Shown one piece after another: positions 985-44,389 of a DNA stretch of 64,000 bases. Positions within the stretch are counted from its first letter, which is position 1, and every line of letters starts with the position of its first letter. A program made the position numbers and the translations under genes. Origin of the DNA: Catenuloplanes atrovinosus (GTDB lineage Bacteria > Actinomycetota > Actinomycetes > Mycobacteriales > Micromonosporaceae). The stretch is from NCBI RefSeq assembly GCF_031458235.1, contig NZ_JAVDYB010000001.1:8209001-8273000 (forward strand). Reading direction: 5' to 3'. Below the pieces are notes generated by a model. It saw nothing but the letters and a program-made list of their open reading frames with translations. It ran no database searches and had not been told where the DNA came from.

Positions 985-1432
985 CCCCGGCCGCGGCGGA
1001 ACCAGACCTGTCGCCGCGCCAACGGCGGCACGAAGTCCGCGCGCCGCCCGTCCTGTCCGGCGCTGACCCCACCACGCCGGCCGCAGACTCACGCCGCGCC
1101 GGACCGCACCGCACGCGCCTTTGCTCTGCTTACCTTGTCGAAAACTGCCCAAACCGCCCAAGCTGCCACCACGGTACGCCGCCCGCCGATAGGTAAGCAG
1201 AGCAAAGTCGTGCGGAGCGAGGGTGGGGAGCAGTGGGATGATCTCGGGAGATGGGGTGCGGGAGATCGAAGGTTGTTTTCGCGGTCTCCGCCAAATGTTC
1301 AAGCGCGCACTTCTATCGAAGACAGGCGATCCGCGCAGACTGAGGGCCCGTTCGGGTGACTCATGAGTAGCCCGGGCGGAGATGCCGGATCGCCCGCGAC
1401 ACCCCCGCGGGCCCACCGCTCAGGAGCCCTGG
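985..1432. other. Non-coding gap with a long hairpin element and a palindrome
   Basis: No credible gene is seen here. The gap holds copy 1 of the GCTCTGCTTACC inverted-repeat family (1120-1206) and a palindromic stretch at 1353-1373. There CGGG and CCCG flank the perfect 10-base palindrome ACTCATGAGT (1359-1368), about 65 bases before the phospholipase start. The palindrome could be an operator or part of a 5' leader; no promoter boxes are clear enough to name. Confidence 0.6.
1120..1206. repeat. GCTCTGCTTACC inverted-repeat element, copy 1
   Basis: TTTGCTCTGCTTACCT at 1120-1135 is the exact reverse complement of AGGTAAGCAGAGCAAA at 1191-1206, giving a perfect 16-base stem around a 55-base loop. 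The same arms recur at seven other places in this window. It lies 135 bases after the stop of the TPR regulator gene. There is no T-tract, so it is not a standard intrinsic terminator. Confidence 0.85.
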
Positions 1433-1996
1433 ATGCCCCTATCGCTGTCGGCTGACATCAACCCCACCGTCAAGAGGGTCGGCACCGTCCTGGTGGCGCT
1501 GCTGGCCGTGCTGGCGATCGCGAGTCCCGCCGCGGCGGCCGTGACGCCCGAGCAGAAGGCCGCGACGCTGTCCAGCTTCACCCAGACCAGCGTCGCCAGC
1601 TACAACGCCTGGAACTCGGCGCGCCAGAATCAGGGCGCCTGGGCGGAGTACGGGTTCGACTGGTCGACCGACTACTGCTCGTCCAGCCCGGACAACCCGC
1701 TCGGCTTCGACTTCACGCTCTCCTGCTACCGGCACGACTTCGGCTACCGGAACTACAAGGCCGCCGGTACGTTCGCCGCGAACAAGAGCCGCCTCGATTC
1801 GGCGTTCTACGAGGACCTCAAGCGCAAGTGCGCCACCTACTCGTCCGCGACCCGTCCGGCCTGCTACAGCCTGGCCTGGGTCTACTACGAGGCCGTGGTG
1901 ATCTTCGGCTCGGTCTCCGCGGTGAAGCAGTCCGACCTGGACGAGGCCGCGAGGCTGAAGGCGCAGGGGCTCAAGGCGGAGGCGAACGCCGCCTGA
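1433..1996 (+). CDS. Secreted prokaryotic phospholipase A2
   Basis: A 187-residue protein with an N-terminal signal peptide (hydrophobic about residues 17-30, probable cleavage after SPAAAA at residue 36). The mature part carries the prokaryotic PLA2 signature CYRHDFGYRN: H101-D102 is the catalytic pair, and upstream DWSTDYC supplies calcium-site residues. Four cysteines (82, 98 and two near residues 140 and 152) would form two disulfides. It would hydrolyse the sn-2 ester of phospholipids outside the cell. The ATG at 1433 is chosen because AGGAG lies 6 bases upstream; an in-frame GTG/ATG further up lacks this. It is followed by a bidirectional terminator and converges with korB. Confidence 0.88.
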   Translation: MPLSLSADINPTVKRVGTVLVALLAVLAIASPAAAAVTPEQKAATLSSFTQTSVASYNAWNSARQNQGAWAEYGFDWSTDYCSSSPDNPLGFDFTLSCYRHDFGYRNYKAAGTFAANKSRLDSAFYEDLKRKCATYSSATRPACYSLAWVYYEAVVIFGSVSAVKQSDLDEAARLKAQGLKAEANAA

Positions 1997-2009
1997 GCGG
2001 ATGACCGGG

Positions 2010-2038
2010 ACGGGGGCCTCCATGGCGGAGGCCCCCGT
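2010..2038. terminator. Bidirectional hairpin terminator between PLA2 gene and korB
   Basis: CGGGGGCCTCC at 2011-2021 pairs perfectly with GGAGGCCCCCG at 2027-2037 across a 5-base loop; the flanking A2010-T2038 adds one pair. It sits exactly between two convergent genes and serves both directions. Confidence 0.8.
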
Positions 2039-3055
2039 TCAGATCGTCCAGGTGTCGCCGGCGTGCAGCAGGCCGGTCAGCTGCTCCTCGGGGGTGCCGG
2101 CCGCGGCGGCCCGGGCGTCCGCGACCTGCCGTTGCAACACCTCGTCGTAGGTGGGGCGGGTGACCGCGCGGAACACGCCGATCGGGGTGTTGCGCAGGTC
2201 CAGGCCGGGCAGCCGGGACAGCGCGAACGCGTACGCCGGATCCGCCACGGTCTGGTCGTGCACCACGATGTCGGACGGGTCCACGGAGGCGGCCGGGCGC
2301 ACCGAGAGGCCGAAGCCGCCGGGCGGGTGCACCACGCACGAGTCGCCGAACGTGATCGGCTGCCCGTGCTCCAGCCGGATCAGGTACTCGTCCCGCGTAC
2401 CCGCGTCCTTGAGGGTTTCGAACGCGCCGTCGTTGAAGATGTTGCAGTTCTGGTAGATCTCCACGAACGCGGAGCCGCGGTGCGCGGCGGCGGCGCGGAG
2501 CACGGACTGCAGGTGCTTGCGGTCCGAGTCGATGGTGCGGGCCACGAACCCGGCCTCCGCGCCGAGCGCCAGCGACAGCGGGTTGAACGGCGCGTCCGCG
2601 GACCCGACCGGCGTCGACTTGGTGATCTTCCCCAGCTCGGAGGTCGGCGAGTACTGCCCCTTGGTCAGCCCGTAGATCCGGTTGTTGAACAGCAGGATCT
2701 TCACGTTGACGTTGCGGCGCAGCGCGTGGATCAGGTGGTTGCCGCCGATGGACAGTGCGTCGCCGTCGCCGGTCACCACCCAGATGGACAGGTCGGGACG
2801 GGTGGCGGCGAGCCCGGTGGCGATCGCGGGCGCGCGGCCGTGGATCGAGTGCATGCCGTACGTGTTCATGTAGTACGGGAAACGGGACGAGCACCCGATG
2901 CCGGAGATGAAGACGATCCGCTCGCGCGGAATGTTCAGCTCCGGCATGAAGCCCTGCACCGCGGCCAGGATCGCGTAGTCCCCGCACCCGGGGCACCAGC
3001 GCACCTCCTGGTCGGACTTGAAGTCCTTGGCGGTGAGTTTGAGCAGCTCAGCCAT
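2039..3055 (-). CDS. korB: 2-oxoacid:ferredoxin oxidoreductase, beta subunit
   Basis: A 338-residue thiamine-diphosphate subunit. Visible features are CPGCGDY at residues 21-27 and a further cysteine at 55 (iron-sulfur ligands), GDGDALSIGG at 96-105 and NNRIYGLTKGQ near 124-134 (thiamine diphosphate and metal binding). With KorA it decarboxylates 2-oxoglutarate or a related 2-oxoacid to the acyl-CoA and passes electrons to ferredoxin. Its start overlaps the end of korA by 8 bases, so the pair is translationally coupled. The exact substrate (2-oxoglutarate rather than pyruvate) is inferred from resemblance to actinobacterial KorB. Confidence 0.92.
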   Translation of the reverse strand: MAELLKLTAKDFKSDQEVRWCPGCGDYAILAAVQGFMPELNIPRERIVFISGIGCSSRFPYYMNTYGMHSIHGRAPAIATGLAATRPDLSIWVVTGDGDALSIGGNHLIHALRRNVNVKILLFNNRIYGLTKGQYSPTSELGKITKSTPVGSADAPFNPLSLALGAEAGFVARTIDSDRKHLQSVLRAAAAHRGSAFVEIYQNCNIFNDGAFETLKDAGTRDEYLIRLEHGQPITFGDSCVVHPPGGFGLSVRPAASVDPSDIVVHDQTVADPAYAFALSRLPGLDLRNTPIGVFRAVTRPTYDEVLQRQVADARAAAAGTPEEQLTGLLHAGDTWTI

Positions 3056-4892
3056 TCTTCACCACGTCCTCCAGCATGGTCTCCAGCTCGCCCGCGGTGA
3101 ACGGCAGGCCGCTGACCTTGTTGAACGGCAGCGCGTCCACCAGGAACCGGCCCCGGATCACGTGCGCCAGCTGCCCCAGGTTCATCTCCGGGATGACCAC
3201 CCGGTCGTACCCCTTGACCACGGTCTCCAGGTTGGCCGGCAGCGGGTGCAGGTGCCGCAGGTGCGCCTGCGCGATGGTCAGCCCGCGCTGCCGCAGTGCC
3301 CGGCACGCGGCGCCGATCGGCCCGTACGTCGAGCCCCAGCCCAGCACCAGCACGCGCGCCTCGCCGTCCGGGTCGTCGACGGTGACGTCCGGGACCGGGA
3401 TCGTCTCGATGCGCTGCGCCCGGGTGCGCACCATCAGGTCGTGGTTCGCCGGGTCGTACGAGATGTCGCCGGTCTTGTCCGCCTTCTCCAGCCCGCCGAT
3501 CCGGTGCTCCAGCCCGGGTGTGCCCGGGATCGCCCACGGCCGCGCCATCGTCCGCGGATCCCGCAGGTACGGCAGGAAGCGCCCGTCCGGCGCGTTGGCC
3601 GCGGACGCGAACTCCACGGTCAGGTCCGGCAGCGACTCCACCGACGGCAGCAGCCACGGCTCCGACCCGTTCGCCACGTAGTTGTCGGACAGCAGGATCA
3701 CCGGCGTGCGGTAGGTGAGCGCGATCCGGACCGCCTCGATCGCGGCGTGGAAGCAGTCCGACGGCGACTGTGCCGCGACCACCGCGACCGGCGCCTCGCC
3801 GTGCCGGCCGAACAGCGCCATGTTCAGGTCGGCCTGCTCGGTCTTGGTCGGCATGCCGGTCGACGGGCCGGCCCGCTGCACGTCCACGATGACCAGCGGC
3901 AGCTCCAGCGCCACGGCCAGCGAGATCGTCTCGCCCTTGAGCGCCACGCCCGGCCCGCTGGTGGTGGTCACGCCGAGCGCCCCGCCGTAGGAGGCGCCGA
4001 GCGCGGCACCGATCGCCGCGATTTCGTCCTCCGCCTGCATGGTGGTGACGCCGAACCGCTTGTGCTTGGACAGCTCGTGCAGGATGTCCGAGGCCGGCGT
4101 GATCGGGTACGCACCGAGGAACACCGGCAGCCTCGCCCGCACGCCCGCGGCCACGAGGCCGAGCGCGAGCGCCGCGTTGCCGGTGATGTTGCGGTAGGTC
4201 CCGGTGGCCATCGGCGCGGGCGCGATCTCGTACCGCACCGCGAAGTCCTCGGTCGTCTCGCCGAAATTCCACCCGGCACGGAACGCGGCCTGGTTCGCCG
4301 CGACCAGCTCCGGCCGGGCCGCGAACTTGCGCTCCAGGAACCGCAGCGTGGACTCGTACGGCCGGGAGTACATCCAGCTCAGCAGCCCGAGCGCGAACAT
4401 GTTCTTGGCCCGCTCGGCGTCCTTCTTCGACACTCCGGCATCGGCCAGCGCGGCCACGGTCATCGAGGTCAGCGCCACTGGGTGCACGGCGAACCGGGAC
4501 AGCGAGCCGTCGTCGAGGGGGTTCTCCGCGTACCCCACCTTGGCCAGGCTCCGCTTGGTGAACTCGTCCGTGTTGACGATGATCTCGGCGCCCGCGGGCA
4601 GCTCCGCCAGGTTCGCCTTGAGCGCGGCCGGGTTCATCGCGACGAGCACGTCCGGCGCGTCGCCCGGCGTCAGGATGTCGTAGTCGGCGAAGTGCACCTG
4701 GAAGCTGGAGACGCCGGGCAGGGTGCCGGCCGGCGCGCGGATCTCGGCGGGGAAGTTGGGGAGCGTGGAGATGTCGTTGCCGAGCTGCGCCGTCTCCGAC
4801 GTGAACCGGTCACCGGTGAGCTGCATGCCGTCACCGGAGTCGCCCGCGAAGCGGATGACCACCCGATCCAGCCGGCGCACCTGCTTGCTCAT
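3048..4892 (-). CDS. korA: 2-oxoacid:ferredoxin oxidoreductase, fused gamma-alpha subunit
   Basis: A 614-residue protein with the gamma domain first (VVIRFAGDSGDGMQ near residues 10-23) and then the pyrimidine-binding alpha domain (YPITPASDILHELSK and a region around TTSGPGVALKGE). This is the two-subunit KorA layout known from Actinobacteria and Thermus-type enzymes. The ATG at 4892 is preferred because AAGGGG lies 8 bases upstream; an in-frame GTG at 4946 would add 18 atypical residues. It is first in the korA-korB operon and divergent from nuoA. The enzyme lets the TCA cycle run with ferredoxin instead of NAD at the 2-oxoglutarate step. Confidence 0.92.
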   Translation of the reverse strand: MSKQVRRLDRVVIRFAGDSGDGMQLTGDRFTSETAQLGNDISTLPNFPAEIRAPAGTLPGVSSFQVHFADYDILTPGDAPDVLVAMNPAALKANLAELPAGAEIIVNTDEFTKRSLAKVGYAENPLDDGSLSRFAVHPVALTSMTVAALADAGVSKKDAERAKNMFALGLLSWMYSRPYESTLRFLERKFAARPELVAANQAAFRAGWNFGETTEDFAVRYEIAPAPMATGTYRNITGNAALALGLVAAGVRARLPVFLGAYPITPASDILHELSKHKRFGVTTMQAEDEIAAIGAALGASYGGALGVTTTSGPGVALKGETISLAVALELPLVIVDVQRAGPSTGMPTKTEQADLNMALFGRHGEAPVAVVAAQSPSDCFHAAIEAVRIALTYRTPVILLSDNYVANGSEPWLLPSVESLPDLTVEFASAANAPDGRFLPYLRDPRTMARPWAIPGTPGLEHRIGGLEKADKTGDISYDPANHDLMVRTRAQRIETIPVPDVTVDDPDGEARVLVLGWGSTYGPIGAACRALRQRGLTIAQAHLRHLHPLPANLETVVKGYDRVVIPEMNLGQLAHVIRGRFLVDALPFNKVSGLPFTAGELETMLEDVVKNG

Positions 4893-4925
4893 GCTGTCGC
4901 CCCTTCGATCTCCTCCGGATCTTGC

Positions 4926-4943
4926 GTGTGGGCCAGACCACAC
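4926..4943. promoter_or_regulatory. Inverted repeat in the korA-nuoA divergent promoter region
   Basis: GTGTGG (4926-4931) and CCACAC (4938-4943) form a perfect 6-base inverted repeat with a 6-base spacer, 33 bases upstream of the korA start. A second short one, GTCG...CGAC, lies near 4959-4972. Position fits an operator for one or both divergent genes; the regulator is unknown. Confidence 0.35.
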
Positions 4944-5034
4944 CATTGCGTAGCCTACGTCGATTTAGCGACTATCGGCTGTCGGGGCATCGACCCAGCG
5001 TGGCGGCGGTTGGACAGCGGTTAAGCTCGGCCGC

Positions 5035-5412
5035 GTGGAGGGATACCTCGGCTCGTACGCCACGCTCGGCCTGCTGCTGCTCGCCGGCGTGCTCTTCTTC
5101 GCCGCCGCGTTCGGGGCGAACAGGCTGCTCAGACCCGCCGCGCCGACCGACCCGTTCGGCAAGCGCGAGCCGTACGAGTGCGGTCTCGACCCGGTCGGCG
5201 GCGACTGGGCGCAGGCGCAGATCCGGTACTACGTCTACGCGTACCTCTACGTGCTGTTCGCGGTGGAGAGCGTCTTCCTGTTCCCGTGGGCGGTGGTCTT
5301 CGACCGGCCCGGCTTCGGCCTCGCCACAGTGGTGGAAATGGCCGTTTTCGTGGCGGTATTGGCGCTCGGCATCCTCTACGCCTGGCGCAAGAACGTGCTC
5401 CGCTGGACCTGA
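5035..5412 (+). CDS. nuoA: NADH-quinone oxidoreductase subunit A, stand-alone copy
   Basis: A 125-residue membrane protein with three predicted helices (about residues 8-30, 65-88 and 95-117). It has the NuoA signature KREPYECGLDPVG with the loop cysteine, then RYYVYAYLYVLFAVESVFLFP. Length matches the family. No nuoB or other complex I gene follows: the next gene is a DivIVA-domain protein. In several actinobacteria a second, partial nuo cluster lies close to korAB, so this may be the sole survivor of such a cluster. GTG start at 5035. Whether it joins the main complex I encoded elsewhere cannot be told from the sequence. Confidence 0.9.
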   Translation: MEGYLGSYATLGLLLLAGVLFFAAAFGANRLLRPAAPTDPFGKREPYECGLDPVGGDWAQAQIRYYVYAYLYVLFAVESVFLFPWAVVFDRPGFGLATVVEMAVFVAVLALGILYAWRKNVLRWT

Positions 5413-5466
5413 CCGAACGGGGTGGCGGTCTCGCCATGATCCGTCCGTCATGTCACGATCCCCGCT

Positions 5467-6446: not shown

Positions 6447-6479
6447 TCGACTGTCGTACCCCGCGCCTATGGTGACCAC

Positions 6480-7049: not shown

Positions 7050-7111
7050 CGCGCGCCCGGCCGGTCCGGGGTCTCGGCTCCGGCCGCGCGCGGCCGTGGT
7101 GAGATGAGCAC

Positions 7112-7672
7112 ATGGTGCAGCAGTGGGCGATTGTGCTTCCGGACGAGCGGCTCAAGCAGGAGCGGCTCTACCACCACGACTTCGTGGCGCTCGCCGACGT
7201 GCTCGCCGGCCGCCCCGCGTCGCCGCACCCGCAGCTCGGCGACGAGGTCGTGCTGGTCACCGACGAGCCGCATCCGCGCGCGGTCGCGGCCGGCCACATC
7301 GGCGGCCTCACCAAGGACGACGAGCACGATCGGCAGGTCGTCTACTCCCGCCGCGCCTTCGACAACCCGCAGCCGGCCGGCACCCTGACCCTCGACGGCC
7401 CGGTCACCCGGATCACCCCGGCCGAGTACGCGGCCGTCGTCGACCGCTTCGGCCCGCCGCTGGAGCGCCAGACCTGGCTGGTCAGCGTGGACCTGCCGAT
7501 CGAGGCCAGCACGCGCGCCGAGGCCGTCCGCCTCTTCTGGTCGTACGTACGCGACCTCGGTCCCGCCGAACTCCCCGCCTTCGTCTCCCCGTCCGGCGAC
7601 GAGCTCGCCATGCAGGCCTTCGTCCTCGGCGAGGAGACCAACCTCGACCCCGAGGAAGAAGACGAGGACTGA
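7112..7672 (+). CDS. Conserved actinobacterial protein of unknown function
   Basis: 186 residues, no signal peptide or membrane helix, strongly acidic end (EEEDED). The front half reads like a small mixed alpha/beta fold (QWAIVLPDERLKQERLYHHD; DEVVLVTDEPHPRAVAAGHI), with a central TRITPAEYAAVVDRFG helix. I do not recognise the family. It follows tag by 62 bases in the same direction and is the last gene before a repeat-rich gap. ATG at 7112 is used; no strong Shine-Dalgarno is visible. Confidence 0.7.
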   Translation: MVQQWAIVLPDERLKQERLYHHDFVALADVLAGRPASPHPQLGDEVVLVTDEPHPRAVAAGHIGGLTKDDEHDRQVVYSRRAFDNPQPAGTLTLDGPVTRITPAEYAAVVDRFGPPLERQTWLVSVDLPIEASTRAEAVRLFWSYVRDLGPAELPAFVSPSGDELAMQAFVLGEETNLDPEEEDED

Positions 7673-7864: not shown

Positions 7865-7892
7865 CGTCGGCCGGGGCCTCTTTCCGGCTGGC

Positions 7893-7983
7893 TTTGCTCT
7901 GCTTACCTGGGGTCAACTTTGTGCCCGCCGCGTCTCGACGCGAGGCATGAATGGGCAGGCATCACCTAGGTAAGCAGAGCAAA
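7893..7983. repeat. GCTCTGCTTACC inverted-repeat element, copy 2
   Basis: TTTGCTCTGCTTACCT (7893-7908) and AGGTAAGCAGAGCAAA (7968-7983) form a perfect 16-base stem with a 59-base loop. It lies between the convergent unknown gene (ends 7672) and enoyl-CoA hydratase gene (ends 8399). Confidence 0.85.
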
Positions 7984-8398: not shown

Positions 8399-9190
8399 TC
8401 AGCGGCCCTCGAAGACCGGCTTCTCCTTCTTGACGAAGGAGGTGGTGGCGTTGCGGTGGTCGGTGGTGGCGCCGGTGATCGCCTGGGCCTGGGCCTCGGC
8501 GGCGAGTGCGTCGGAGAGGGTGCCGGCGGTGCCGACGGAGAGTTCGCGCTTGATGGCGCCGTAGGCGACGGTCGGGCCGGCGGCGAGGCGGGCGGCGAGT
8601 TCCTGGGCGGTCGGCAGGACCTCGTCGTCGGTGCCGGTCAGGCGGGTGAGCAGGCCGAGGGTGAGTGCCTCGGTGGCGCGGACCGGCTCGGCCAGCAGCA
8701 TCAGCTCGACGGCCTTGGCGTGGCCGACGATGCGCGGCAGGGACCAGGAGATGCCGGTGTCGCCGGCCAGGCCGACGTTCGCGAACGCCATCAGGAACGT
8801 GGTGGCGGGGCCGCCGATGCGGAAGTCGGCCAGCATGGCCAGGGAGGCGCCGGCGCCGGCCGCGGTGCCGCGGACGGCGGCGACGACGGGCTTGGGCAGG
8901 TTCGCCAGGCGCTGTGCGATCGGGTTGTAGTGGGCGCGGACCGTGGCGAGCGGGTCGACGTCGCCGGCCTCCAGGATGGCCACGTGCTCGCGCAGGTCCT
9001 GGCCGACGCAGAACGCGCGGCCGGCGCCGGTGAGCACGACGGCGCGGACGGTCCGGTCGGCCTCGATCTCGGCGAGCGTGTCCCGTAGCGCCTCCTTCAG
9101 GGCCACGTCCAGTGAGTTCATCGACTCGGGACGGTTGAGCACGAGCGTGAGGACGCCCTCGGAGCGCTCGATCAGCAACGGTTCGGTCAC
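8399..9190 (-). CDS. Enoyl-CoA hydratase/isomerase family protein
   Basis: 263 residues with the crotonase fold: the oxyanion-hole stretches GAGRAFCVGQDLREH (about 55-69) and AAVRGTAAGAGASLAMLADFR (about 104-124) are clear. A GAFCVGQDL-type loop with an Asp is common in PaaG/PaaB-like 2-(1,2-epoxy-dihydrophenyl)acetyl-CoA isomerases, and the PaaX-type regulator next to it supports that reading. Exact substrate is inferred, not shown. GTG at 9190 is chosen: the protein then starts VTEPLLIERSEG and AAGG lies 10 bases upstream. An upstream start at 9223 would add 11 residues. It lies 48 bases downstream of the PaaX gene, probably in one transcript. Confidence 0.85.
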   Translation of the reverse strand: MTEPLLIERSEGVLTLVLNRPESMNSLDVALKEALRDTLAEIEADRTVRAVVLTGAGRAFCVGQDLREHVAILEAGDVDPLATVRAHYNPIAQRLANLPKPVVAAVRGTAAGAGASLAMLADFRIGGPATTFLMAFANVGLAGDTGISWSLPRIVGHAKAVELMLLAEPVRATEALTLGLLTRLTGTDDEVLPTAQELAARLAAGPTVAYGAIKRELSVGTAGTLSDALAAEAQAQAITGATTDHRNATTSFVKKEKPVFEGR

Positions 9191-10554: not shown

Positions 10555-10591
10555 TTTGTGCCACGACCGACCGCTAGAGGGTGAGCAGAGC

Positions 10592-12073
10592 ATGCCGAAC
10601 GTCCGCCTGGTCTCCGAGCCGGATCTGACTTCAGTGGTGGTGCTGCCGGTGCGCCCGGTGGCCGAGCCCGCCGAGGAGGGACCGGCGGCCGAGCTGGTGG
10701 CGGCCGGCCACGCGCTGCCGGCCGACGTGACCGCGGAGGTGACCGCGTTCCTGGCCGAGTCGGAGGCGACCGGCCGGGCGGGGAGCACGGTCACGCTGCC
10801 GCGCCCCACCCGTACCCCCGCGAAATTGATCTTTGTTGGGGTCGGCGACGCGGACGAGGCGGGCTGGCGTGCGGCGGGCGCGGCCGTGTCCCGCGCGGTG
10901 GACACGGCGGCGACCGTGCTGCTGCCGTCCGGAGTGTCCGGTGCCGCGGTCCGCGGCCTGGCGGAGGGCCTGCACCTGGGCGCCTACCGGTTCACCGTCC
11001 CGGCGGAGTTCGACGAGGCCGGCCCGGAGCCGGCCGAGATCGCGCTGGCGGCCGGCGGGGACTTCGCGGCGGAGCTGACCACCGCGTCCGTGGTGGCGGC
11101 CGCGACCGCCCTGGCCCGCGACTGGACCAACACGCCGTCGTCGATCAAGAGCCCGGACTGGCTGGCCGCCGAGATGGCGGCCGCGGGCGACCGGCCCGGC
11201 CTGGACGGCGTGGGCGGGCGCGCGGAGGTCGTGGTCCGGGACGCGGCATGGCTGCGCGAGCAGGGCTTCGGCGGCGTGCTCGCGGTCGGCGGCGGCTCCG
11301 CGAACGAGCCCCGGCTGGTCGAGGCCACGTGGAGCCCCGAGGGCGCGACCCGGCACGTGGTGCTGGTCGGCAAGGGCATCACGTTCGACACCGGCGGCAT
11401 CTCGATCAAGCCGGTCGCGGCGATGAAGCTGATGCGCAAGGACATGGGCGGCGCCGCGGCAGTGGTCGCGGCCGTGCACGCGGCGGCGGCGCTGCGGCTG
11501 CCGGTGCGGGTGACCGCGCTGGCGCCGCTCGCGGAGAACATGGTGAGCGGCTCCGCGTTCCGCCCCGGCGACGTGGTGCGCCACTTCGGCGGCATGACCA
11601 GCGAGACCACGAACAGCGACGCGGAGGGCCGGCTGGTGCTGGCCGACGCGATGGCGTACGCGGTGCAGCGGCTCGCGCCCGACCTGCTGATCGACCTCGC
11701 CACGCTGACCGGCGCGAACGCGGTGGCGCTCGGCAAGACCATGGCCGCGCTGTACAGCCCGAACGACGCGCTGGCCAAGGAGCTGGCGGACGCGGCCGAG
11801 GACGCGGGCGAGCACGCCTGGCGCATGCCGCTGGCCGACGAGTACGCGGACACGCTGCGCAGCGACATCGCGGACGTCTACAGCGCGCCGCCGGCGGTCA
11901 GCTCGATCTCCGCCGCGCTGTTCCTCCGCGAGTTCACCGGCGACCTGCGCAACGAGTGGGCGCACTTCGACATGTCGGCGCCGTCCTGGTCGGACGGCGT
12001 GGACGGGGTGCTGGCCAAGGGCGCGACCGGCTGGGGCGTACGCACGCTGGTCCGCTGGCTGCGGACTCTCTAG
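10592..12073 (+). CDS. pepA: Leucyl aminopeptidase (M17)
   Basis: 493 residues, normal for PepA. The C-terminal catalytic domain shows VGKGITFDTGGISIKP (Lys and Asp metal ligands), KDMGGAAAVV (Asp ligand) and the M17 signature NSDAEGRLVLADA (Asp, Glu ligands and the catalytic Arg). The enzyme releases N-terminal residues from peptides in the cytoplasm as a two-metal hexamer. ATG at 10592 follows GAGGGTGAG. The stop overlaps the stop of the convergent O-methyltransferase gene by four bases, so no terminator hairpin separates them. Confidence 0.95.
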   Translation: MPNVRLVSEPDLTSVVVLPVRPVAEPAEEGPAAELVAAGHALPADVTAEVTAFLAESEATGRAGSTVTLPRPTRTPAKLIFVGVGDADEAGWRAAGAAVSRAVDTAATVLLPSGVSGAAVRGLAEGLHLGAYRFTVPAEFDEAGPEPAEIALAAGGDFAAELTTASVVAAATALARDWTNTPSSIKSPDWLAAEMAAAGDRPGLDGVGGRAEVVVRDAAWLREQGFGGVLAVGGGSANEPRLVEATWSPEGATRHVVLVGKGITFDTGGISIKPVAAMKLMRKDMGGAAAVVAAVHAAAALRLPVRVTALAPLAENMVSGSAFRPGDVVRHFGGMTSETTNSDAEGRLVLADAMAYAVQRLAPDLLIDLATLTGANAVALGKTMAALYSPNDALAKELADAAEDAGEHAWRMPLADEYADTLRSDIADVYSAPPAVSSISAALFLREFTGDLRNEWAHFDMSAPSWSDGVDGVLAKGATGWGVRTLVRWLRTL

Positions 12074-19652: not shown

Positions 19653-20531
19653 ATGACCACAGTGCCGTACGAGATCGTCGACGTCTTCACCGACCGCCCC
19701 TTCGCCGGGAACCCGCTCGCCGTGGTCTTCGGCGCCGAGCTGCTCGGCACGGACCAGTTGCAGGCGCTCGCCCGCGAGTTCAACCTCTCCGAGACCGTGT
19801 TCGTGCTGCCGCCCACCCCGGCGGCCCCGGACGCGACGTACCGAGCCCGGATCTTCACGCCCGTGGCCGAGCTGCCGTTCGCCGGCCACCCCAGCGTCGG
19901 CGCCGCCGTCACCGTGGCCCGGCGCGGCCTGGCCTCGCCGGGCACGCTCCGCCAGGAGTGCGGTGCCGGCGTGCTCTCCATCGACGTCACCTCGCACGGC
20001 GAGGGCCGTCTCACCGGCGGTACGCCCACGCTCGGCGACGAGCGCGACCCCGCGCCGCTGCTCGAGGTGGCCGGCCTGACCCCCGCCGACCTGGCCGGGC
20101 CACCCCCGCGCCCGGCCGGCTGCGGCCTGGAACACCTCTACCTCTCCGTCCGTCCCGACGCGGTCTCCCGCGCCCGGCTGGACGCGTCCGCCGCCGCCCG
20201 CCACGACGTACCGAAGCTGACGATCCTGTCCTGGGACGACTCCACCGGCATCGCGCACCTGCGCATGTTCGGCTCCGGCGTCGGCGTCCCCGAGGACCCG
20301 GCGACCGGCTCCGCCGCCCTCGGCCTCGGCGTCTACCTGGTCGGCGCCGGCCTCCTCCCCGGCGACGGCGAGTCCCGCTACACCATCCACCAGGGCGCCG
20401 AGATCCACCGTCCCTCCACCCTGGAGTGCACGGTCACCGCCTCCGCCGGCACCGCCGTCTCCGCCACCGTCGCCGGCCACGTCGTCCAGGTCGCCAAGGG
20501 CGAGATCGCCGTCCCACCCTTCCTCGGCTGA
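19653..20531 (+). CDS. PhzF-family isomerase/epimerase-fold protein
   Basis: 292 residues with the PhzF signature: VDVFTDRPFAGNPLAVV at the front, the conserved Glu in FNLSETVFV (about 45), AELPFAGHPSVGAA and the late GVPEDPATGSAA. PhzF itself isomerises trans-2,3-dihydro-3-hydroxyanthranilate; no phenazine genes are nearby, so this is one of the many PhzF-like proteins without known substrate. ATG at 19653 gives the typical start. It ends just before the hairpin array. Confidence 0.88.
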   Translation: MTTVPYEIVDVFTDRPFAGNPLAVVFGAELLGTDQLQALAREFNLSETVFVLPPTPAAPDATYRARIFTPVAELPFAGHPSVGAAVTVARRGLASPGTLRQECGAGVLSIDVTSHGEGRLTGGTPTLGDERDPAPLLEVAGLTPADLAGPPPRPAGCGLEHLYLSVRPDAVSRARLDASAAARHDVPKLTILSWDDSTGIAHLRMFGSGVGVPEDPATGSAALGLGVYLVGAGLLPGDGESRYTIHQGAEIHRPSTLECTVTASAGTAVSATVAGHVVQVAKGEIAVPPFLG

Positions 20532-20548: not shown

Positions 20549-20958
20549 TTTGCTCTGCTTACCCGCCCACGACCAGGCAGGTAAGCGGAGCGGTCCGGTC
20601 TCGTCCCGCCCGGCTTCGCTCTGCTCACCTGCCGCACCGCGGGTGAGCAGAGCGGCGTCTCGCCCCGGCTTTGCTCTGCTTACCCGCGCGCTGGCGCCCG
20701 ATCCGGGCGGATTCGTTCCGCGGGCATTTCGCGGCTTTCGTCTAGGTAAGCAGAGCGGGAGTGTGTCGCTCTGCTCTGCTTACCTGCGGCCGGCTGCCGG
20801 AATCGCGGCAGTTCGCCGGTCCGGCGTTCTGCGGCTTTCGTTCAGGTAAGCAGAGCGAACGGAGATCACTTGCGCTGCTTACCCACCGGCCGCCGCCCGA
20901 TCCGGCCGGCTTCGCCCGGCGAGCGTTTCGCGGCTTTTGGTCATGTAAGCAGAGCAAA
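20549..20958. repeat. Array of five GCTCTGCTTACC inverted-repeat elements
   Basis: Five hairpins stand head to tail. Unit 1 has arms at 20549-20563 and 20580-20592 (imperfect), unit 2 at 20617-20629 and 20642-20654, unit 3 at 20670-20684 and 20745-20757, unit 4 at 20773-20784 and 20845-20856, and unit 5 at 20870-20883 and 20945-20958. In unit 2 CGCTCTGCTCACC pairs with GGTGAGCAGAGCG: one arm changed T to C and the other A to G, so pairing is kept. The loops of units 3-5 share a related end near GCGTTTCGCGGCTTTCG. The whole stretch lies between the convergent PhzF gene and the 21014-21520 gene. Confidence 0.85.
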
Positions 20959-21013: not shown

Positions 21014-21520
21014 TCAGTGCGGAGCGCGGCGCCCGCGGACCCGGTGGAGGCGGAACGGCTTGCGGGCCGGCCGGGCCGCCGTCGACTCGCGGGGCGGTGC
21101 GGCCTGGGAGCCCGACGGCAGCTCGGCGCCCGCGAGGGCCGAGGGCGACGCCGTAACCAGGCGGTTCACCACGCACGACTCCGCCCACCGGGCGACCAGC
21201 GCGGCCGTGGACCCCGGCGCGTTCAGCCGCTTGCCGGCGAGTTGGGTGGCCACCGGCTCCCACTCCTCGTCCGCGGGCGAGAGCCGCGACACCGCCGCGT
21301 CCCAGGTGACCACCGCACCGCCGTGGTCGCCGCGCAGCGTGACCTGTGCGGCGGCGGCGTCGGCCAGGCCGGGGGCGGCCTGCTCGCCCGGGCCGCTGAC
21401 CACGTGCAGCGCGCCGTCGACGGCCAGGCACCAGACCGCGGTGGCGGGCCGGCCGTCGACCGAGATCCAGGCCACGGACGCCTTCTTCAGGACCTCGTCC
21501 ACCAGCGGGTGAGCAGCCAT
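21014..21520 (-). CDS. Conserved actinobacterial protein, possible FMN-binding split-barrel fold
   Basis: 168 residues. The front (MAAHPLVDEVLKKASVAWIS, then AVWCLAVDGALHVVSGPGEQ) resembles the strand order of pyridoxamine-phosphate-oxidase-like split barrels, but the resemblance is weak. The tail is basic (PARKPFRLHRVRGRRAPH). ATG 21520 is used. Before the IS481 insertion this start lay 10 bases downstream of the HAD gene stop, so the two formed an operon. The insertion now separates it from that promoter. Confidence 0.6.
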   Translation of the reverse strand: MAAHPLVDEVLKKASVAWISVDGRPATAVWCLAVDGALHVVSGPGEQAAPGLADAAAAQVTLRGDHGGAVVTWDAAVSRLSPADEEWEPVATQLAGKRLNAPGSTAALVARWAESCVVNRLVTASPSALAGAELPSGSQAAPPRESTAARPARKPFRLHRVRGRRAPH

Positions 21521-21529
21521 GAGGAACAC

Positions 21530-37070: not shown

Positions 37071-37082
37071 GGTCTGGACCCC

Positions 37083-37775: not shown

Positions 37776-37779
37776 TGCT

Positions 37780-38445: not shown

Positions 38446-38561
38446 GCGCCTGAGTGAATGGTCCGGCGTTGGGTCATTCGTTCACAGCCAGAAGCGCAAC
38501 TGATACTCTGAGTGGGCGGCGCACAACGGTATCTGACCGCCGCGGAGGGGGATGGCCCGCA

Positions 38562-38723: not shown

Positions 38724-38730
38724 GCCGGTC

Positions 38731-39411: not shown

Positions 39412-39504
39412 TCCCGCCCGGATATCAGCCGTTCGCCCATAGATATCGCTCCCCGCGTCGTGTGAGTCTGTCTGGGACGGCTTGCCACGCGGGGGAGGGT
39501 GACG

Positions 39505-40209
39505 ATGGAGGGCGACTCGGAGGCGGCGCCGGTCAGCGCCGACCGGGACCTGCGCGTGGTCGCCGACAGCGTCGACGACGAGTTCCGCGACTTCGTCTCC
39601 GCCCGCTCCGGCGCGCTGCTGCGCACGGCGTACCTGCTGGCCGGCGACTGGGCGACGGCGGAGGACCTGCTGCAGACCGCGCTGACCAAGACGTACCTGG
39701 CCTGGCGCCGGCTCGGGCGGATCGAGGCGGTCGAGCCGTACGCGCGACGCGTGCTGGTCAACACCGCCACCAGCTGGTGGCGCCGCCGCTGGCACGGTGA
39801 GCGCCCCACCGAGGTGCTGCCGGAGCGCGCGGCACCGGACGAGATCGAGGCCCAGCTGGAGCGGGACGCGCTCTGGCGGCACGTGCGGGCGCTGCCCACC
39901 CGGCAGCGGGCCGTGCTGGTGCTGCGCTTCTACGAGGACCTGTCCGAGGCGCAGACCGCCGCGATGCTGAACATCTCGCCCGGCACGGTCAAGAGCCAGA
40001 CCTTCCGCGCGCTGAACGTGTTGCGCCGGCGCCTGGTCGCGGAGGGCATCGACCCGGACTCGGGCGTGCCGGTGCCGGAGCCCGCCGCCGAGGCCGCGCC
40101 GCGCCCGGAGCCGGTGATCACCACCCGGCCGCTGCCGGCCCGCCCGGCCGCGCCCACGCCCACCGCGCTGTCCGAGGTCCGCCGGCAGCTCGCGCGGGAG
40201 AGGCGGTGA
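39505..40209 (+). CDS. SigE-family ECF RNA polymerase sigma factor
   Basis: 234 residues. Region 2 (FVSARSGALLRTAYLLAGDW, TAEDLLQTALTKTYLAWRRL) and region 4 (LPTRQRAVLVLRFYEDLSEA, ISPGTVKSQTFRALNVLRRR) are clear, and a Pro-rich tail follows. This matches the NCBI class called SigE-family sigma factor of Actinobacteria and is not the Rv1221 SigE. ATG 39505 has GGGGGAGGG just upstream. The gene overlaps the next by GTGA, so a membrane-anchored partner is co-translated. Confidence 0.92.
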   Translation: MEGDSEAAPVSADRDLRVVADSVDDEFRDFVSARSGALLRTAYLLAGDWATAEDLLQTALTKTYLAWRRLGRIEAVEPYARRVLVNTATSWWRRRWHGERPTEVLPERAAPDEIEAQLERDALWRHVRALPTRQRAVLVLRFYEDLSEAQTAAMLNISPGTVKSQTFRALNVLRRRLVAEGIDPDSGVPVPEPAAEAAPRPEPVITTRPLPARPAAPTPTALSEVRRQLARERR

Positions 40210-41426
40210 GCCCGGTGCTCGAGGACCGGCTCCGTGACCTCTTCGCGGCGACCACGCAGAGCGTGCCGTCCGCGGACGACCCCGCGGCCCGCGCCATGGC
40301 CCGGGGCCGGGCGATCCGCCGCCGGCGGCTGACGGTCGCCGCCGCGGCCGCGGCCCTGCTGGCCGGCGCGTCCGTCTACGGGCTCGGCACGCTCGGGCCG
40401 CGCGGCGGAGCGCCCACGGTCATGCTGCCGAACGGCGCGCCGGTGGAGGCGTCCAGCGCCGCGCCGCCGGCCGTGGCCGAGGCCGACCGCGGGCCGGACG
40501 GGTCCGCCACCGCGGAGCAACGCGACATCGGCGGCGAGCCCACCGGGCTGGAGCTGGACGTGCGCGTCGGTGACCAGCTGTGGACCACCGGCGGGTCGGT
40601 GGTGACGCTGGCCGGCGTGGGGAACGTCACCCGGGCGTACCGGGTGCCGATCGGCTGGGTCTACGGCGGCGAGCACGGCGTCCGGCTGCTGGTGCTGGAG
40701 GACGGCAGCACCAAGGCACTCAGCGCGCGCGGCGACGGCTGGGCGCTCGACCCGGCCGGCGAGCGGATCGCGTTCGTCGCGGACGGCCGGCTGCACGTCG
40801 GCGCCGTGACCGTGGACGGCCTGGCGGTGACCGGCGGCGCACCGATCGCGGGGGAGGTGTACCCGGCCGGCTTCGTCGGCGACAGCGTGCTGATCCGGGC
40901 CGGCGACGGGGCGTACGCGCTGCTCGATCCGGCCGCGCCGGTCGAGCCGGCGGTCAACCCGCGGGTGCTGACCGTGCTCGGCCCGCGCGCCGACGGCGCC
41001 GTCACCGCGCTGGTCCGCGAGGAGGGCGGCGACCGGGTCTGCCTGGCCCGGCTGGAGGCGGCCGCGCCGGAGCTGAGGATCGGCACGACCGGCGGGTGCG
41101 CGCTCGGGCTGACCGTGGACGGCGACTCGGGCGTGCGGCTGTCCGCCGACGGCAGCCACCTCTACCAGGCCGGCGACGACGGATTCCGGCTGATCGACGT
41201 GGACGCCGCGATCGGCGGCGCCGGCGGCACCGTGGACTGCGCGGCTGGGACCGGCACCGCGCCGGTCTGGATCTCCGCGGACGCGCTGCTGGCCGGCGCG
41301 GACGGCACGGCGGTCACCTGCCGGGTCGACGGCGTGCGCGGCACGGTGGCGCTGCCCGCCGGTGTCGGGGCGAACTGGCAGTACGTGCCGCGGCTCGGCG
41401 GGCTTCCGGGCTCGCGTACCCGGTAG
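40206..41426 (+). CDS. Membrane-anchored partner of the sigma factor, beta-propeller-like exterior
   Basis: 406 residues: cytoplasmic head of about 40 residues (EDRLRDLFAATTQSV), one membrane helix (about 43-63), and a large outer domain with repeated strand pairs (GWALDPAGERIAFVADGRLH; SGVRLSADGSHLYQAGDDGF) resembling a WD-like beta-propeller. The head has no zinc-finger HxxxCxxC motif, so it differs from classic anti-sigma factors. Its coupling to the sigma gene by GTGA suggests it senses an outside signal and controls that sigma factor. Confidence 0.75.
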   Translation: MSPVLEDRLRDLFAATTQSVPSADDPAARAMARGRAIRRRRLTVAAAAAALLAGASVYGLGTLGPRGGAPTVMLPNGAPVEASSAAPPAVAEADRGPDGSATAEQRDIGGEPTGLELDVRVGDQLWTTGGSVVTLAGVGNVTRAYRVPIGWVYGGEHGVRLLVLEDGSTKALSARGDGWALDPAGERIAFVADGRLHVGAVTVDGLAVTGGAPIAGEVYPAGFVGDSVLIRAGDGAYALLDPAAPVEPAVNPRVLTVLGPRADGAVTALVREEGGDRVCLARLEAAAPELRIGTTGGCALGLTVDGDSGVRLSADGSHLYQAGDDGFRLIDVDAAIGGAGGTVDCAAGTGTAPVWISADALLAGADGTAVTCRVDGVRGTVALPAGVGANWQYVPRLGGLPGSRTR

Positions 41427-41448
41427 ATGTCTGATGCAGACTTTGTAG

Positions 41449-42303
41449 GTGACCGCACCCCGTATCGACCTGCACACCCACTCCACCGCCAGTGACGGCA
41501 CGCTGCGCCCGGCCGAGCTGATCCGGGCCGGGGCCGCCGCCGGGCTGACCGTGATGGCGATCACCGACCACGACACCACGGCCGGCTGGGCGGAGGCGGC
41601 CGGCGTGCGCCCGGACGGGCTGACGCTGATCCGGGGCGCGGAGATCTCCTGCCGCTGGCACGGCGCGGAGCCGGGGATCGGGCTGCACCTGCTGGCGTAC
41701 CTGATCGACCCCGCGGACGCGGCGCTCACCGGCGAACTGGCCCGGGTGCGGGCCGACCGGGAGCGGCGCGGCGAGGCGATCGTCGATCTGCTGCGCGCCG
41801 ACGGCATCGACGTGAGCTGGGCGGAGGTGATGGAGTACGCGGCCGGCGGCTCGGTCGGACGCCCGCACATCGCGGCCGCGCTGATCCGGGCCGGGCTGGT
41901 CGACACCACGTCGGAGGCGTTCGGGCCGCGCTGGCTCGGCCGCCGCTACCGGCTGCCCAAGGCCGACATCGACGTCTTCACCGCGGTACGGCTGGTGCGT
42001 GGCGCCGGCGGCGTACCGGTGCTGGCCCACCCGCGCGCCACCCGGCGCGGCCGGATCGTGCCGGACTCGCTGATCGAGGAGCTGGCCGGAACCGGGCTGT
42101 TCGGCCTGGAGGCGGACCACGAGGACCACTCGCCCGAGGAGCGCGAACACGTGCGGCGGCTCGCGGACCGGCTCGGCCTGGTGGTGACCGGCTCGTCCGA
42201 TTTCCACGGTACGCACAAGACCGTGGCGCTGGGCGCGTTCACCACCGCGCCCGAGGTGCTCGACAAGATCGTGGCGGCCGGCACCGGAGTCCCCCCGCTC
42301 TGA
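41449..42303 (+). CDS. PHP-domain metal-dependent phosphoesterase
   Basis: 284 residues. The four PHP motifs are visible: DLHTHSTASDG (motif 1), ITDHDTTAGW (2), RGAEISCRWHG (3) and GSSDFHGTHK (4), with HPRATRRGR between. Stand-alone members act on nucleotides such as 3',5'-bisphosphates or 5'-3' on RNA oligomers (YciV/RNase AM type). GTG start at 41449. It begins 22 bases after the sigma partner gene. Confidence 0.92.
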   Translation: MTAPRIDLHTHSTASDGTLRPAELIRAGAAAGLTVMAITDHDTTAGWAEAAGVRPDGLTLIRGAEISCRWHGAEPGIGLHLLAYLIDPADAALTGELARVRADRERRGEAIVDLLRADGIDVSWAEVMEYAAGGSVGRPHIAAALIRAGLVDTTSEAFGPRWLGRRYRLPKADIDVFTAVRLVRGAGGVPVLAHPRATRRGRIVPDSLIEELAGTGLFGLEADHEDHSPEEREHVRRLADRLGLVVTGSSDFHGTHKTVALGAFTTAPEVLDKIVAAGTGVPPL

Positions 42304-42331
42304 CCAATGTTGATCACGGTAGCGTGATCAT

Positions 42332-42952
42332 GTGGACTTCAAGCTGCTCGGCGAGGTCTTCGTCACGCTGCTGGTCATCGTGGACCCGCCGGGAATGGTG
42401 CCGATCTTCCTGGCCCTGACCGGCACGCTGCCGAAGCGCGACCGGCGCCGGGCCGGGCGACAGGCGGTCGCGCTGGCCTTCGGCGTCATCGTGGTGTTCG
42501 CGCTGCTCGGCCAGACGCTCCTCGACTACCTGCACGTCGACCTGCCCGCGCTGCAGGGCGCCGGTGGGCTGCTGCTGATCCTGATCGCGCTGGAACTGCT
42601 CACCGGCAAGACCGACGACACCAGCGATCGGCAGGCCACCTCGAACGTGGCGCTGGTCCCGCTGGGCGTACCGCTGCTGGCCGGCCCCGGCGCGATCGTC
42701 GCCACCATGCTGTTCGTGCGGAACGCGGAGAACTCGGCGGACTACGTGGCGATCGGCGCCGGGATCGTCGCCGTGATGGGCGTGGTGCTGCTGGTCCTGC
42801 GCTTCTCCGACGTGATCGTGCGGGTCCTCCGGCCGGGTGGCATCGAGGTGGTGACCCGGATCGCCGGCCTGCTGCTGGCCGCGATCGCGGTACAGCTCAT
42901 CGCGGACTCGGTGGCCGCGTTCGTGGCGGAGTACGCCGACCACGCGCGGTAG
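42332..42952 (+). CDS. MarC-family integral membrane protein
   Basis: 206 residues with six predicted helices and the MarC/UPF0056 features VTLLVIVDPPGMVPIFLALT and VPLGVPLLAGPGAIVATML. The family's function is unknown despite the historical link to multiple antibiotic resistance. GTG start; 28 bases after the PHP gene, so probably co-transcribed. Confidence 0.92.
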   Translation: MDFKLLGEVFVTLLVIVDPPGMVPIFLALTGTLPKRDRRRAGRQAVALAFGVIVVFALLGQTLLDYLHVDLPALQGAGGLLLILIALELLTGKTDDTSDRQATSNVALVPLGVPLLAGPGAIVATMLFVRNAENSADYVAIGAGIVAVMGVVLLVLRFSDVIVRVLRPGGIEVVTRIAGLLLAAIAVQLIADSVAAFVAEYADHAR

Positions 42953-42981
42953 CCGTCGTACCCTCCTGGCAGGATCGAGGG

Positions 42982-43905
42982 GTGCGCAGGTCTTCCTCCA
43001 CCGGCCGGTCCGCGGTGCCCGAGCAGCTCGGGTTCCCCGGCATGCCGCAGCGGCTCTTCGTCTGCACGCCCAGCAAGCTCGGCACGTACACGGACTGCCC
43101 GCGGCGCTACCGGTACGCGTACGTCGACCGCCCCACGCCGCCGAAGGGCCCGCCGTGGGCGCACAACTCGCTCGGGGCCAGCGTGCACACCGCGCTGAAG
43201 AACTGGTTCGACCTGCCCGCCGACCGCCGCCGTCCCGGCGTGCTCCCGACCCTGCTCAAGGCCACGTGGGTACGGGAGGGATACCGCGACGTCGAGCAGG
43301 AGCGCGCCGCCTGGCGGGCCGCGCTCGCGTGGCTGGACGGCTACCTCGCCGGCCTCGACCCGGCCTTCGAGCCGGTCGGCGTCGAGCGCGTGGTCGCCGC
43401 CCGCACCGCCGTGCTCGCGCTGAGCGGCCGCGCCGACCGGATCGACGCCCGGGTCGGCCCCGACGGCCGCCGCGAGCTGGTCATCGTCGACTACAAGACC
43501 GGCCGCGGCGGCGCCGACCCGGACGACGCACGCGGCTCACAGGCGCTGGCGCTCTACGCGTTCGCCGCGGAGAAGGTCTTCCACGCCCCCTGCCACCGGG
43601 TCGAGCTGCACCACCTGCCGACCGGCGTGGTGGCCGCGCACGAGCACACCGACGAGTCCCTGGCCCGCCAGGTCCGCCGCGCCGAGGAGACCGCCGCCGA
43701 CATCATGGCCGCGGAGGCCGCCGTCACCGAGGGCGCCGACCCCGACACGGCCTTCCCCACCACCCCCGGCCGGCTCTGCTCCTGGTGCGACTTCCGCGCG
43801 ATCTGCCCGGCCGGCTCCTCCGCCGAGCCGAAGCCCCCCTGGTCGGCCGTCGAGTCGACACTCCGCCCCGACCCGTCCTCCCGCCCCACCCCGGCCCCGG
43901 ACTGA
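42982..43905 (+). CDS. RecB/Cas4-type PD-(D/E)XK nuclease with four-cysteine cluster
   Basis: 307 residues. CTPSKLGTYTDCPRRYRY near the start gives the first cluster cysteine and a QxxxY-like helix. The nuclease core is LSGRADRID and IVDYKTG (catalytic Asp and Lys), and the closing CSWCDFRAICPAG gives the last three cysteines of a 4Fe-4S cluster. This is the stand-alone RecB-family exonuclease found across Actinobacteria. No CRISPR array or AddAB partner is nearby. GTG start at 42982. Confidence 0.9.
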   Translation: MRRSSSTGRSAVPEQLGFPGMPQRLFVCTPSKLGTYTDCPRRYRYAYVDRPTPPKGPPWAHNSLGASVHTALKNWFDLPADRRRPGVLPTLLKATWVREGYRDVEQERAAWRAALAWLDGYLAGLDPAFEPVGVERVVAARTAVLALSGRADRIDARVGPDGRRELVIVDYKTGRGGADPDDARGSQALALYAFAAEKVFHAPCHRVELHHLPTGVVAAHEHTDESLARQVRRAEETAADIMAAEAAVTEGADPDTAFPTTPGRLCSWCDFRAICPAGSSAEPKPPWSAVESTLRPDPSSRPTPAPD

Positions 43906-44389
43906 CCGCCGCTGGCTCCCCGGCACGCCGCCGATCGCGACTGATCACCGACTGATCACCGTCTGCTCTCCGGGCGCGTCTCTGATCGAGGTTGACCGCG
44001 GCCGGCCCCGGCGCGTCCCTGATCGGGACAGGCCGCCGGCCGCCGCTTCTGGCGCGCCGCTGATCGGGACTGACCGTCGGCCGCTTCGCGCCTGCGTGGC
44101 CTGGCCGGCCAGCGGACGAAGGGGCGTCCTGATCACCATTCCGTCCGATACTTCCCGGCGCGGACGGCCGGCGAGCCGCGTTCGCCCGCCGATTCCGTGT
44201 GGTGCCGCGTGGTCGCCGCGTCCGTGGTCGACGGCATCGGTCCGGCCGGCTTTGCTCTGCTTACCTGAACGAACCCGACCAAAGTGCTCGCCGGGACGTC
44301 ACTCGCGAGTGGCGGTTTGTGGGTGATTCGTCCAGGTAAGCAGAGCAAATGCTGCCGGGAGGGCGGCGCCGGGTCGAGGCGGCGGGGGA
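43906..44389. other. Non-coding gap with degenerate repeats and a hairpin element
   Basis: No gene is supported. Between about 43918 and 44090 a motif of the form GGCGCG..CTGATCGGGAC..ACCG..GGCCG recurs three to four times with a period near 45 bases, imperfectly. The GCTCTGCTTACC hairpin element copy 8 follows at 44251-44349. The gap separates convergent genes. Confidence 0.6.
44251..44349. repeat. GCTCTGCTTACC inverted-repeat element, copy 8
   Basis: TTTGCTCTGCTTACCTG (44251-44267) and CAGGTAAGCAGAGCAAA (44333-44349) form a perfect 17-base stem, the longest of the family, around a 65-base loop. It lies between the convergent nuclease gene (ends 43905) and MpaB gene (ends 44390). Confidence 0.87.

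Follow-up and report, generated by a model that had tools for sequence, protein, structure and literature searches.

The stretch of Catenuloplanes atrovinosus DNA analysed here (64,000 nucleotides, hereafter the window) contains eight inverted repeats with closely similar arms, which raises the question of whether such elements work as hairpins in RNA, are mobile palindromes, or are sites on DNA. We found all eight elements in the window sequence at the coordinates reported in an earlier note on this DNA, arranged as follows.

1120..1206, unstranded: facing pair with exact arms at 1120-1134 and 1192-1206; loop of 57; in a tandem (++) gap
7893..7983, unstranded: facing pair with exact arms at 7893-7907 and 7969-7983; loop of 61; in a convergent gap
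20549..20594, unstranded: array unit 1; left arm 20549-20563 exact, right arm 20580-20594 degenerate; loop 16
20615..20656, unstranded: array unit 2; left arm 20615-20629 with 2 mismatches, right arm 20642-20656 degenerate; loop 12
20670..20759, unstranded: array unit 3; left arm 20670-20684 exact, right arm 20745-20759 with 3 mismatches; loop 60
20770..20859, unstranded: array unit 4; left arm 20770-20784 and right arm 20845-20859, each with 1 mismatch; loop 60
20869..20958, unstranded: array unit 5; left arm 20869-20883 with 2 mismatches, right arm 20944-20958 with 1; loop 60
44251..44349, unstranded: facing pair with exact arms at 44251-44265 and 44335-44349; loop of 69; in a convergent gap

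The right arms are degenerate in the two small elements, 20549-20594 and 20615-20656. The reported loop range of 12-65 holds with slightly longer arms and becomes 12-69 with 15-base arms. By simple gene calls, seven of the eight elements were indeed in convergent locations, the exception being 1120-1206, which lies between two plus-strand genes; the five-unit array (20549-20958) is entirely inside one convergent gap. The genes adjoining the elements in convergent gaps are listed below.

7112..7672, plus strand: gene ending ahead of the 7893 element; no Pfam match
8399..9190, minus strand: enoyl-CoA hydratase/isomerase gene (PF00378, E 2.8e-53), convergent towards the 7893 element
19662..20531, plus strand: PhzF-like gene (PF02567) ending 17 bases before the array
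21014..21529, minus strand: gene without a Pfam match, convergent towards the array
43015..43905, plus strand: PD-(D/E)XK nuclease-family gene (PF12705) ending ahead of the 44251 element
44390..45268, minus strand: MpaB/rubber-oxygenase-family gene (PF09995) converging on the 44251 element

The genome-wide search that the earlier note had proposed revealed 64 exact copies of the arm TTTGCTCTGCTTACC in the 8.9-Mb host genome, far above chance and compared with 0 for a reversed-pattern control; with up to two mismatches, the counts were 101 and 2, respectively. Rather than occurring singly and at random, which the note had named as the contrary outcome, most arms formed facing pairs or arrays, and these lay at gene ends. 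With a site defined by at least one arm with no more than one mismatch, the 29 host sites comprised 18 convergent, 11 tandem and 0 divergent gaps, and 132 sites overall included 90 convergent, 38 tandem and 1 divergent. The arms were also arranged as direct arrays; both orientations were present in 22/29 host sites and a single orientation in 7/29. These counts cover the arms as listed, less a small number of single arms in G001 and G002. For the Actinoplanes genome G159, which holds 50 exact arms, 11 places in 7 regions were retrieved; 65 of 67 genomes of that genus hold no arm.

The arm was present in all five searched genomes of the host genus (probably Catenuloplanes, which are soil bacteria), and 23 of the 29 host sites had a flanking gene in common with a site in another genome. 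In particular, the groups of shared sites that include 7893-7983, the array and 44251-44349 each covered all five genomes, with the number of arms in the array varying by species, and one gene flanking 1120-1206 was common to sites in G002, G003 and G004. At the orthologous sites inspected, the observation that arms are conserved and loops are not extended across species, and the flanks had diverged as well.

The spacing between arms was found to increase in steps of approximately 11 bp, both for facing and for direct arms. Among the facing loops tested (79 of 94), 14 were 45-50 bases long, 34 were 56-61 and 11 were 68-71, with none at 51-55 or 62-67. The direct steps tested (112 of 121, up to 110) fell at 22-24 (18), 31-35 (20), 42-47 (21), 54-58 (16) and 62-69 (14), with 0, 1, 3 and 0 at the intervening 25-30, 36-41, 48-53 and 59-61. 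When one value was drawn per shared site (loops 30-100, steps 18-100), only 0.07% (30 groups) and 0.27% (27 groups) of jittered controls were as strong, although the weakest draws reached only 1% and 4%. The period itself was poorly resolved, as neighbouring bands for the facing loops scored 7.3 and 8.3 versus 9.35, and some arrays of relatives were off the ladder (by eye, the g16 unit is ~19). Additionally, A/T in the loops peaked at arm positions 22-23 and 32-33; its phased amplitude exceeded that of all 200 shuffles, the A/T spectrum was broad, and across loop classes the register was set by the arms and not by the element centre.

Arm spacing in helix turns, together with arms that stay fixed amid changing DNA, suggests that a putative protein grips the arms. 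We therefore tentatively read the elements, at a little under an even chance, as two-ended DNA sites of dispersed Micromonosporaceae repeats that the host genus has kept at gene ends, where a putative DNA-bending protein would provide insulation. Such a sequence-specific protein would contact the arms along a single helical face and bend or wrap the intervening DNA; the complex may then insulate neighbouring transcription units by stopping or absorbing transcription and supercoiling arriving from either side. The fixed arms at inspected shared sites, the placement at gene ends, the helical-turn spacing, the phased loop A/T and, as described below, the strand-asymmetric flanks, the mainly one-sided arm changes and the unpaired outer flanks support this reading. 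Among the options listed in the earlier note, the one that agrees best with the phased spacing is a target for a putative dimeric DNA-binding protein.

An alternative is that the arms pair in the transcript, forming RNA hairpins that serve as bidirectional terminators or mRNA-end stabilisers. The location at gene ends would suit such a role, as would the strong stem covariation in elements of the sister genus g18 (counted in 19 of 22 elements, length 68) and the covariation of Micromonospora elements as stems (p 0.001); no covariation was found in Rugosimonospora elements. Among 72 elements of the host genus, 65 arm variants affected one arm only, while 8 were matched in both arms, which is slightly above chance (3 expected, p 0.001). 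Some pairing was also seen between the inner loop ends, with p 0.006 in a local alignment and p 0.095 when kept in register. Extension of the stem by the outer flanks, which two window elements had suggested, was not borne out by 22 host sites (p 0.33) or by 87 pairs, where pairing was no better than in mispaired controls (p 0.51). The claim that conservation acts on the paired arms thus stands for the arms, which in the host genus are apparently conserved more as sequence than as stem. Over 219 sides, a hairpin adjoining the arms was not enriched (mean z 0.04); for a control placed further out, the mean of which is invalid because of zero variances, the fraction with z under -2 was 10%, against 3%. 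Furthermore, we agree by eye that the elements lack the T-tract required downstream of an intrinsic-terminator stem, one g18 copy sits in-frame within a MocR-type gene, and a stem leaves the 11-bp ladder unexplained. RNA hairpins are quite unlikely in our judgement. The approximately 11-bp spacing, the phased A/T, the one-sided arm changes and the unpaired outer flanks are sequence patterns that favour double-stranded DNA as the probable working form in the host genus. The stem covariation in g18 and Micromonospora, the excess of matched changes in the host genus, the partial pairing of inner loop ends, the poorly resolved period and the off-ladder arrays in some relatives nevertheless count against two-ended DNA sites.

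The flanks were found to be strand-asymmetric. Over a stretch of 78 nt up to and including the outer arm, C/G exceeded 1.5 in 69% of the 219 sides; two sets of control gene ends gave 12.5% (of 104) and 9.1% (of 154). The skew next to the arm was 0.32 versus about 0.07 at control ends. According to PMC6407284, rut sites are C-rich, G-poor stretches of about 78 nt. The elements could accordingly be two-sided Rho-dependent stops, at which entry from either side yields C-rich, G-poor RNA and Rho terminates near the arms; like the terminators described there, they are approached by a C-rich, G-poor run. Unlike them, the elements have strict arms, and their C-rich flanks are found on both sides even where a gene end is faced by only one. 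At 24 tandem sites, the side facing the gene start was as skewed (0.387) as the side facing the gene end (0.338), which also weakens the idea that each gene has its own Rho terminator there. Rugosimonospora elements were unskewed (0.003, 18 elements), and composition by itself is weak evidence; we regard Rho-dependent stops as very doubtful. Potential G-quadruplexes occurred in 17% of 219 flanks versus 2% of 254 control ends, yet shuffles of the same flanks gave 14-19%, so this excess reflects composition only.

Preferred DNA gyrase sites, which would relieve supercoils between convergent genes, were also considered. The convergent position and the phased A/T are reminiscent of the E. coli gyrase motif, which, according to PMC6379681, has a 10.75-bp periodicity and is enriched downstream of highly transcribed operons. 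However, that motif is described there as degenerate and about 130 bp long, whereas the element has strict arms of 15 nearly invariant bp that set the A/T register across loop classes; we consider gyrase sites highly improbable.

The element of the host genus belongs to a wider family of dispersed palindromes, patchily spread over the Micromonosporaceae, in which each genus has arms of its own. A degenerate core, TTTGCTCTGNNNACC, was present in 24 of 101 genomes, with 0-7 copies outside the known carriers. The patchy spread, the in-frame g18 copy and the near-uniform copies in Rugosimonospora (loops 36-37 in 18/19 elements), g17, g18 and g42 would be expected of non-autonomous mobile or relic palindromes that were spread by a putative enzyme and have no host function. 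The small mobile element proposed in the earlier note fits these uniform copies better than the shared host-genus sites, at which arms are fixed and loops have diverged. Four sets (18, 17, 27 and 72 elements) were searched for a target-site duplication; beyond weak excesses of 3-4 bases, none had direct repeats of 3-9 bp that flanked the elements consistently. No clean empty site was seen in g18. The left part of a Micromonospora empty-site query was multicopy sequence. Viral contigs contained 0 full pairs with loops of 35-65, and the simple gene caller found no gene in a 0.9-kb arm-flanked stretch in L083. The transposase search, which covered PF01797 (RAYT, Y1 transposase), revealed no match in the five host-genus genomes; 4/12 wider-family carriers had matches versus 1/16 other genomes, some of them partial. 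Overall, mobile or relic palindromes appear unlikely. The elements resemble REP/BIME in being dispersed intergenic palindromes near gene ends, often as composite arrays with facing units. RAYT-linked REP/BIME carry a GTAG-type tag at one palindrome end according to PMC2817692 and PMC3733652; this tag is absent from the arm consensus, and the variable loops, helical spacing and conserved arms differ as well. Identity with RAYT/REP is thus unsupported for the host genus, in the five genomes of which no RAYT match was found.

Sites were concentrated on one side of dnaA. The four complete genomes, which are related, had 18/29, 15/25, 22/40 and 16/19 of their sites at +0.36 to +0.84 Mb from dnaA, an interval picked after inspection of the data. 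The matS sites of MatP are likewise short and concentrated in one chromosome segment; the present elements differ in being paired, phased, one-sided near dnaA and located at gene ends, and their binding protein is putative. It is conceivable, though rather unlikely, that a putative actinobacterial nucleoid protein bridges arms that are in helical phase and labels a single segment near the origin as a domain, with bridges between convergent genes; this would parallel matS/MatP, but on one side and with a wrapping architecture that is new.

The view that no described family has this core stands within the literature and Rfam searched. The Rfam scan of the window gave two matches at gathering score, neither at an element; the exact 15-mer arm had no match in the literature searched, and related sequence words gave, among the matches listed, papers judged unrelated by title and abstract start. 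TRIT, a conserved terminator motif of Mycobacterium tuberculosis, is similar by description in being a repeated conserved actinobacterial motif at gene ends; none of the elements was matched in the Rfam scan. Dispersed palindromes are usually classified as mobile relics or terminators. The present elements are set apart by arms that stay while loops change by approximately a helix turn, by their gene-end sites and by one crowded segment. If an arm-binding protein is found, the elements would represent a gene-end insulator or chromosome-domain marker for actinobacteria, and the protein would explain how one repeat family can be hairpin-like in one genus and protein-site-like in another.

The eight repeat elements described in an earlier note were all found in place by a sequence check of the window. 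A genome-wide search for their arm, which was also proposed there, returned 64 exact copies of TTTGCTCTGCTTACC (30 forward and 34 reverse) from the host genome, a single contig of 8,906,892 bases in which the window spans 8,209,001-8,273,000, compared with 0 for the reversed-pattern control. When up to two mismatches were allowed, 101 arm matches were found versus 2 for the reversed pattern. An isolated partial arm carrying three mismatches adjoined a leucyl-aminopeptidase-family gene (window 10580-10594, minus strand).

To describe placement, gene context was assigned with our own simple gene caller. As evident from the results, 18 of the 29 host sites were convergent, 11 were tandem and none was divergent or within a called gene; of the 132 sites of five genomes of the genus, 90 were convergent and 38 tandem, with 1 divergent site, 1 within a gene and 2 undecided. 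The 11 sites of G011, which was taken as Micromonospora pattaloongensis, were convergent (3) or tandem (8). Placement differed in Rugosimonospora, with 4 convergent, 10 tandem, 4 divergent and 1 undecided among 19 sites. Among gaps of 60 bp or more in a contiguous 404-kb stretch that included the window, elements occupied 12 of the 35 convergent gaps, 5 of the 95 tandem ones and 1 of the 60 divergent ones; one of these 18 sites had received a different class in the assignment of the 29 host sites. The corresponding values in a 460-kb stretch on the far side of dnaA were 2 of 23, 0 of 130 and 0 of 62. The stretches, which were picked after clustering had been seen, differed in all gaps (18/190 versus 2/215, p = 9e-5) and in convergent gaps alone (p = 0.03). 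Across four complete genomes, the interval from +0.36 to +0.84 Mb from dnaA held 18/29, 15/25, 22/40 and 16/19 sites, and its mirror image on the opposite side had 2, 1, 4 and 1; because these genomes share ancestry, they do not represent four independent tests.

Many sites were shared between genomes. At 23 of the 29 host sites, at least one flanking protein had a counterpart beside a site in another of the searched genomes, with 45% identity or more across 60% of the longer protein (one-gene matching can join paralogues), and all five genomes of the genus were represented in seven shared-site groups. At the inspected shared sites, the arms were the same or nearly so, and variation was seen in the sequence of loops and flanks, in the length of the loop and in arm number. 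One tandem site had a flanking gene common to sites in G011 and a Rugosimonospora genome, G024 (60-67% identity). Individual loci showed further arrangements. In G003, eight direct arms with a 23-bp period were followed by one facing arm (L112:3020-3270), and an unexplained long-range pair had arms approximately 0.9 kb apart with no called gene between them (L083:3027-3980). Two copies of an 89-aa gene, which we take to be FliQ-like, bracketed a repeat site at host 8.115 Mb (L052:11841-13101) and matched over approximately 370 bp at 88% DNA identity; the same layout was present in G004 and G002 (L117 and L135).

Both flanks were C-rich and G-poor when read towards the element. The skew beside the arm was 0.32 versus approximately 0.07 at control gene ends, and a C/G ratio above 1.5 in 78 nt (arm included) was found on 69% of 219 sides, compared with 12.5% of 104 and 9.1% of 154 controls. 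At 24 tandem sites the skew was alike on the side facing the gene end (0.338) and that facing the gene start (0.387), which indicated that the asymmetry is a property of the element. This composition agrees with rut sites as described in PMC6407284 and fits a two-sided Rho-like stop, but the evidence for such a stop is compositional, and the skew was absent from Rugosimonospora elements. The right outer flanks of one shared tandem site (L055, L120 and L138) were very G-rich; over all flanks, G-quadruplex motifs showed no excess above the composition-based expectation.

The five searched genomes of the host's genus carried 24 to 82 exact arms each, and the arm was present in 10 of the 101 relatives searched, including the host. 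In the Micromonosporaceae sample, the exact word occurred in 62 of 354 genomes, which represented 8 of the 44 genera; by our own row count, 49 of the 62 belonged to genus g4 (taken as Micromonospora), with 1-9 copies each. Two of 67 genomes of g29 (taken as Actinoplanes) were positive, with 50 and 5 copies, and in both the variant cores TTTGCTCTGAGCACC and TTTGCTCTGCGCACC adjoined exact arms. When named genomes were scanned for complete facing pairs (loop 35-65), in a search that may omit near relatives of the window, 21 stretches were obtained, all from Micromonosporaceae, with matches in Rugosimonospora africana, Catenuloplanes japonicus, four Micromonospora species and one Actinoplanes; no such pair was found in the viral contigs searched. 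A guessed related arm, the 13-base TTTGCTCTGCACC, was counted against its reversed control: G020 (g17) had 15 copies, G021 and G054 (both g18) had 25 and 29, and G045 (g42) had 34, versus 0 for the control in each. These copies formed facing pairs of near-constant spacing, and an inner TATACGCA motif followed the arm in g18, as in Rugosimonospora and Micromonospora. The elements of the window are thus members of a broader family whose arms are genus-specific. An array of a variant arm (about GGGTGCAGAGCAAG) was also observed in G180 of g16 (L217:3039-3241); its unit, approximately 19 bases by eye, lay off the 11-bp ladder of arm spacings.

Some evidence from the relatives argues against a purely DNA-based reading. 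Over 19 aligned g18 elements, 91.8% of cells were paired, with 30 two-sided changes versus 9.7 in shuffles (0 of 500 as high), and the signal was lost when the partner arm was slid out of register. Micromonospora elements also covaried (p = 0.001), and Rugosimonospora elements showed no covariation (p = 0.99). We infer from this covariation either that the ancestral element was a working hairpin or that the palindromes were kept tidy by template switching. Within g18, an element followed the stop codon in 6 of 6 species at site L232, and a 66-bp palindrome of the sister subfamily lay within the linker of a presumably MocR-type regulator, in frame with the coding sequence (L236:1447-1514, G054), where it was recognisable in 5 of 6 species. 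This placement argues against a strong terminator in g18.

Comparison with known systems gave several differences. REP/BIME elements are defined by features including a tag and a RAYT (PMC2817692, PMC3733652), and the present elements fell outside this class because, in the host's genus, the arms had no tag and no RAYT was found. The elements were also rejected as MITEs, as there was no consistent target duplication. The E. coli gyrase motif, as outlined in PMC6379681, has a similar phased pattern, but the present elements differ from it in their strict arms. The Rfam scan of the window gave no match at any element and returned the following features:

54408-54481, plus strand, tRNA gene
56990-57074, plus strand, c-di-GMP-II-GAG riboswitch aptamer (48.7 bits)

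By term search, the main text of the RepRanger paper (PMC12306157) mentions none of Micromonospora, Actinoplanes or Streptomyces. As far as the Rfam and literature searches reach, this dispersed-repeat family is undescribed.

The elements combine conserved arms, phased spacing, phased A/T patches, asymmetric flanks, placement at gene ends and regional concentration. Our reading of them as two-ended sites for a DNA-bending protein is tentative, with a likelihood that we place slightly short of even. A putative protein would grip the arms on one helical face and bend or wrap the loop DNA, and the resulting complex may insulate gene ends from transcription or supercoiling coming from either side.
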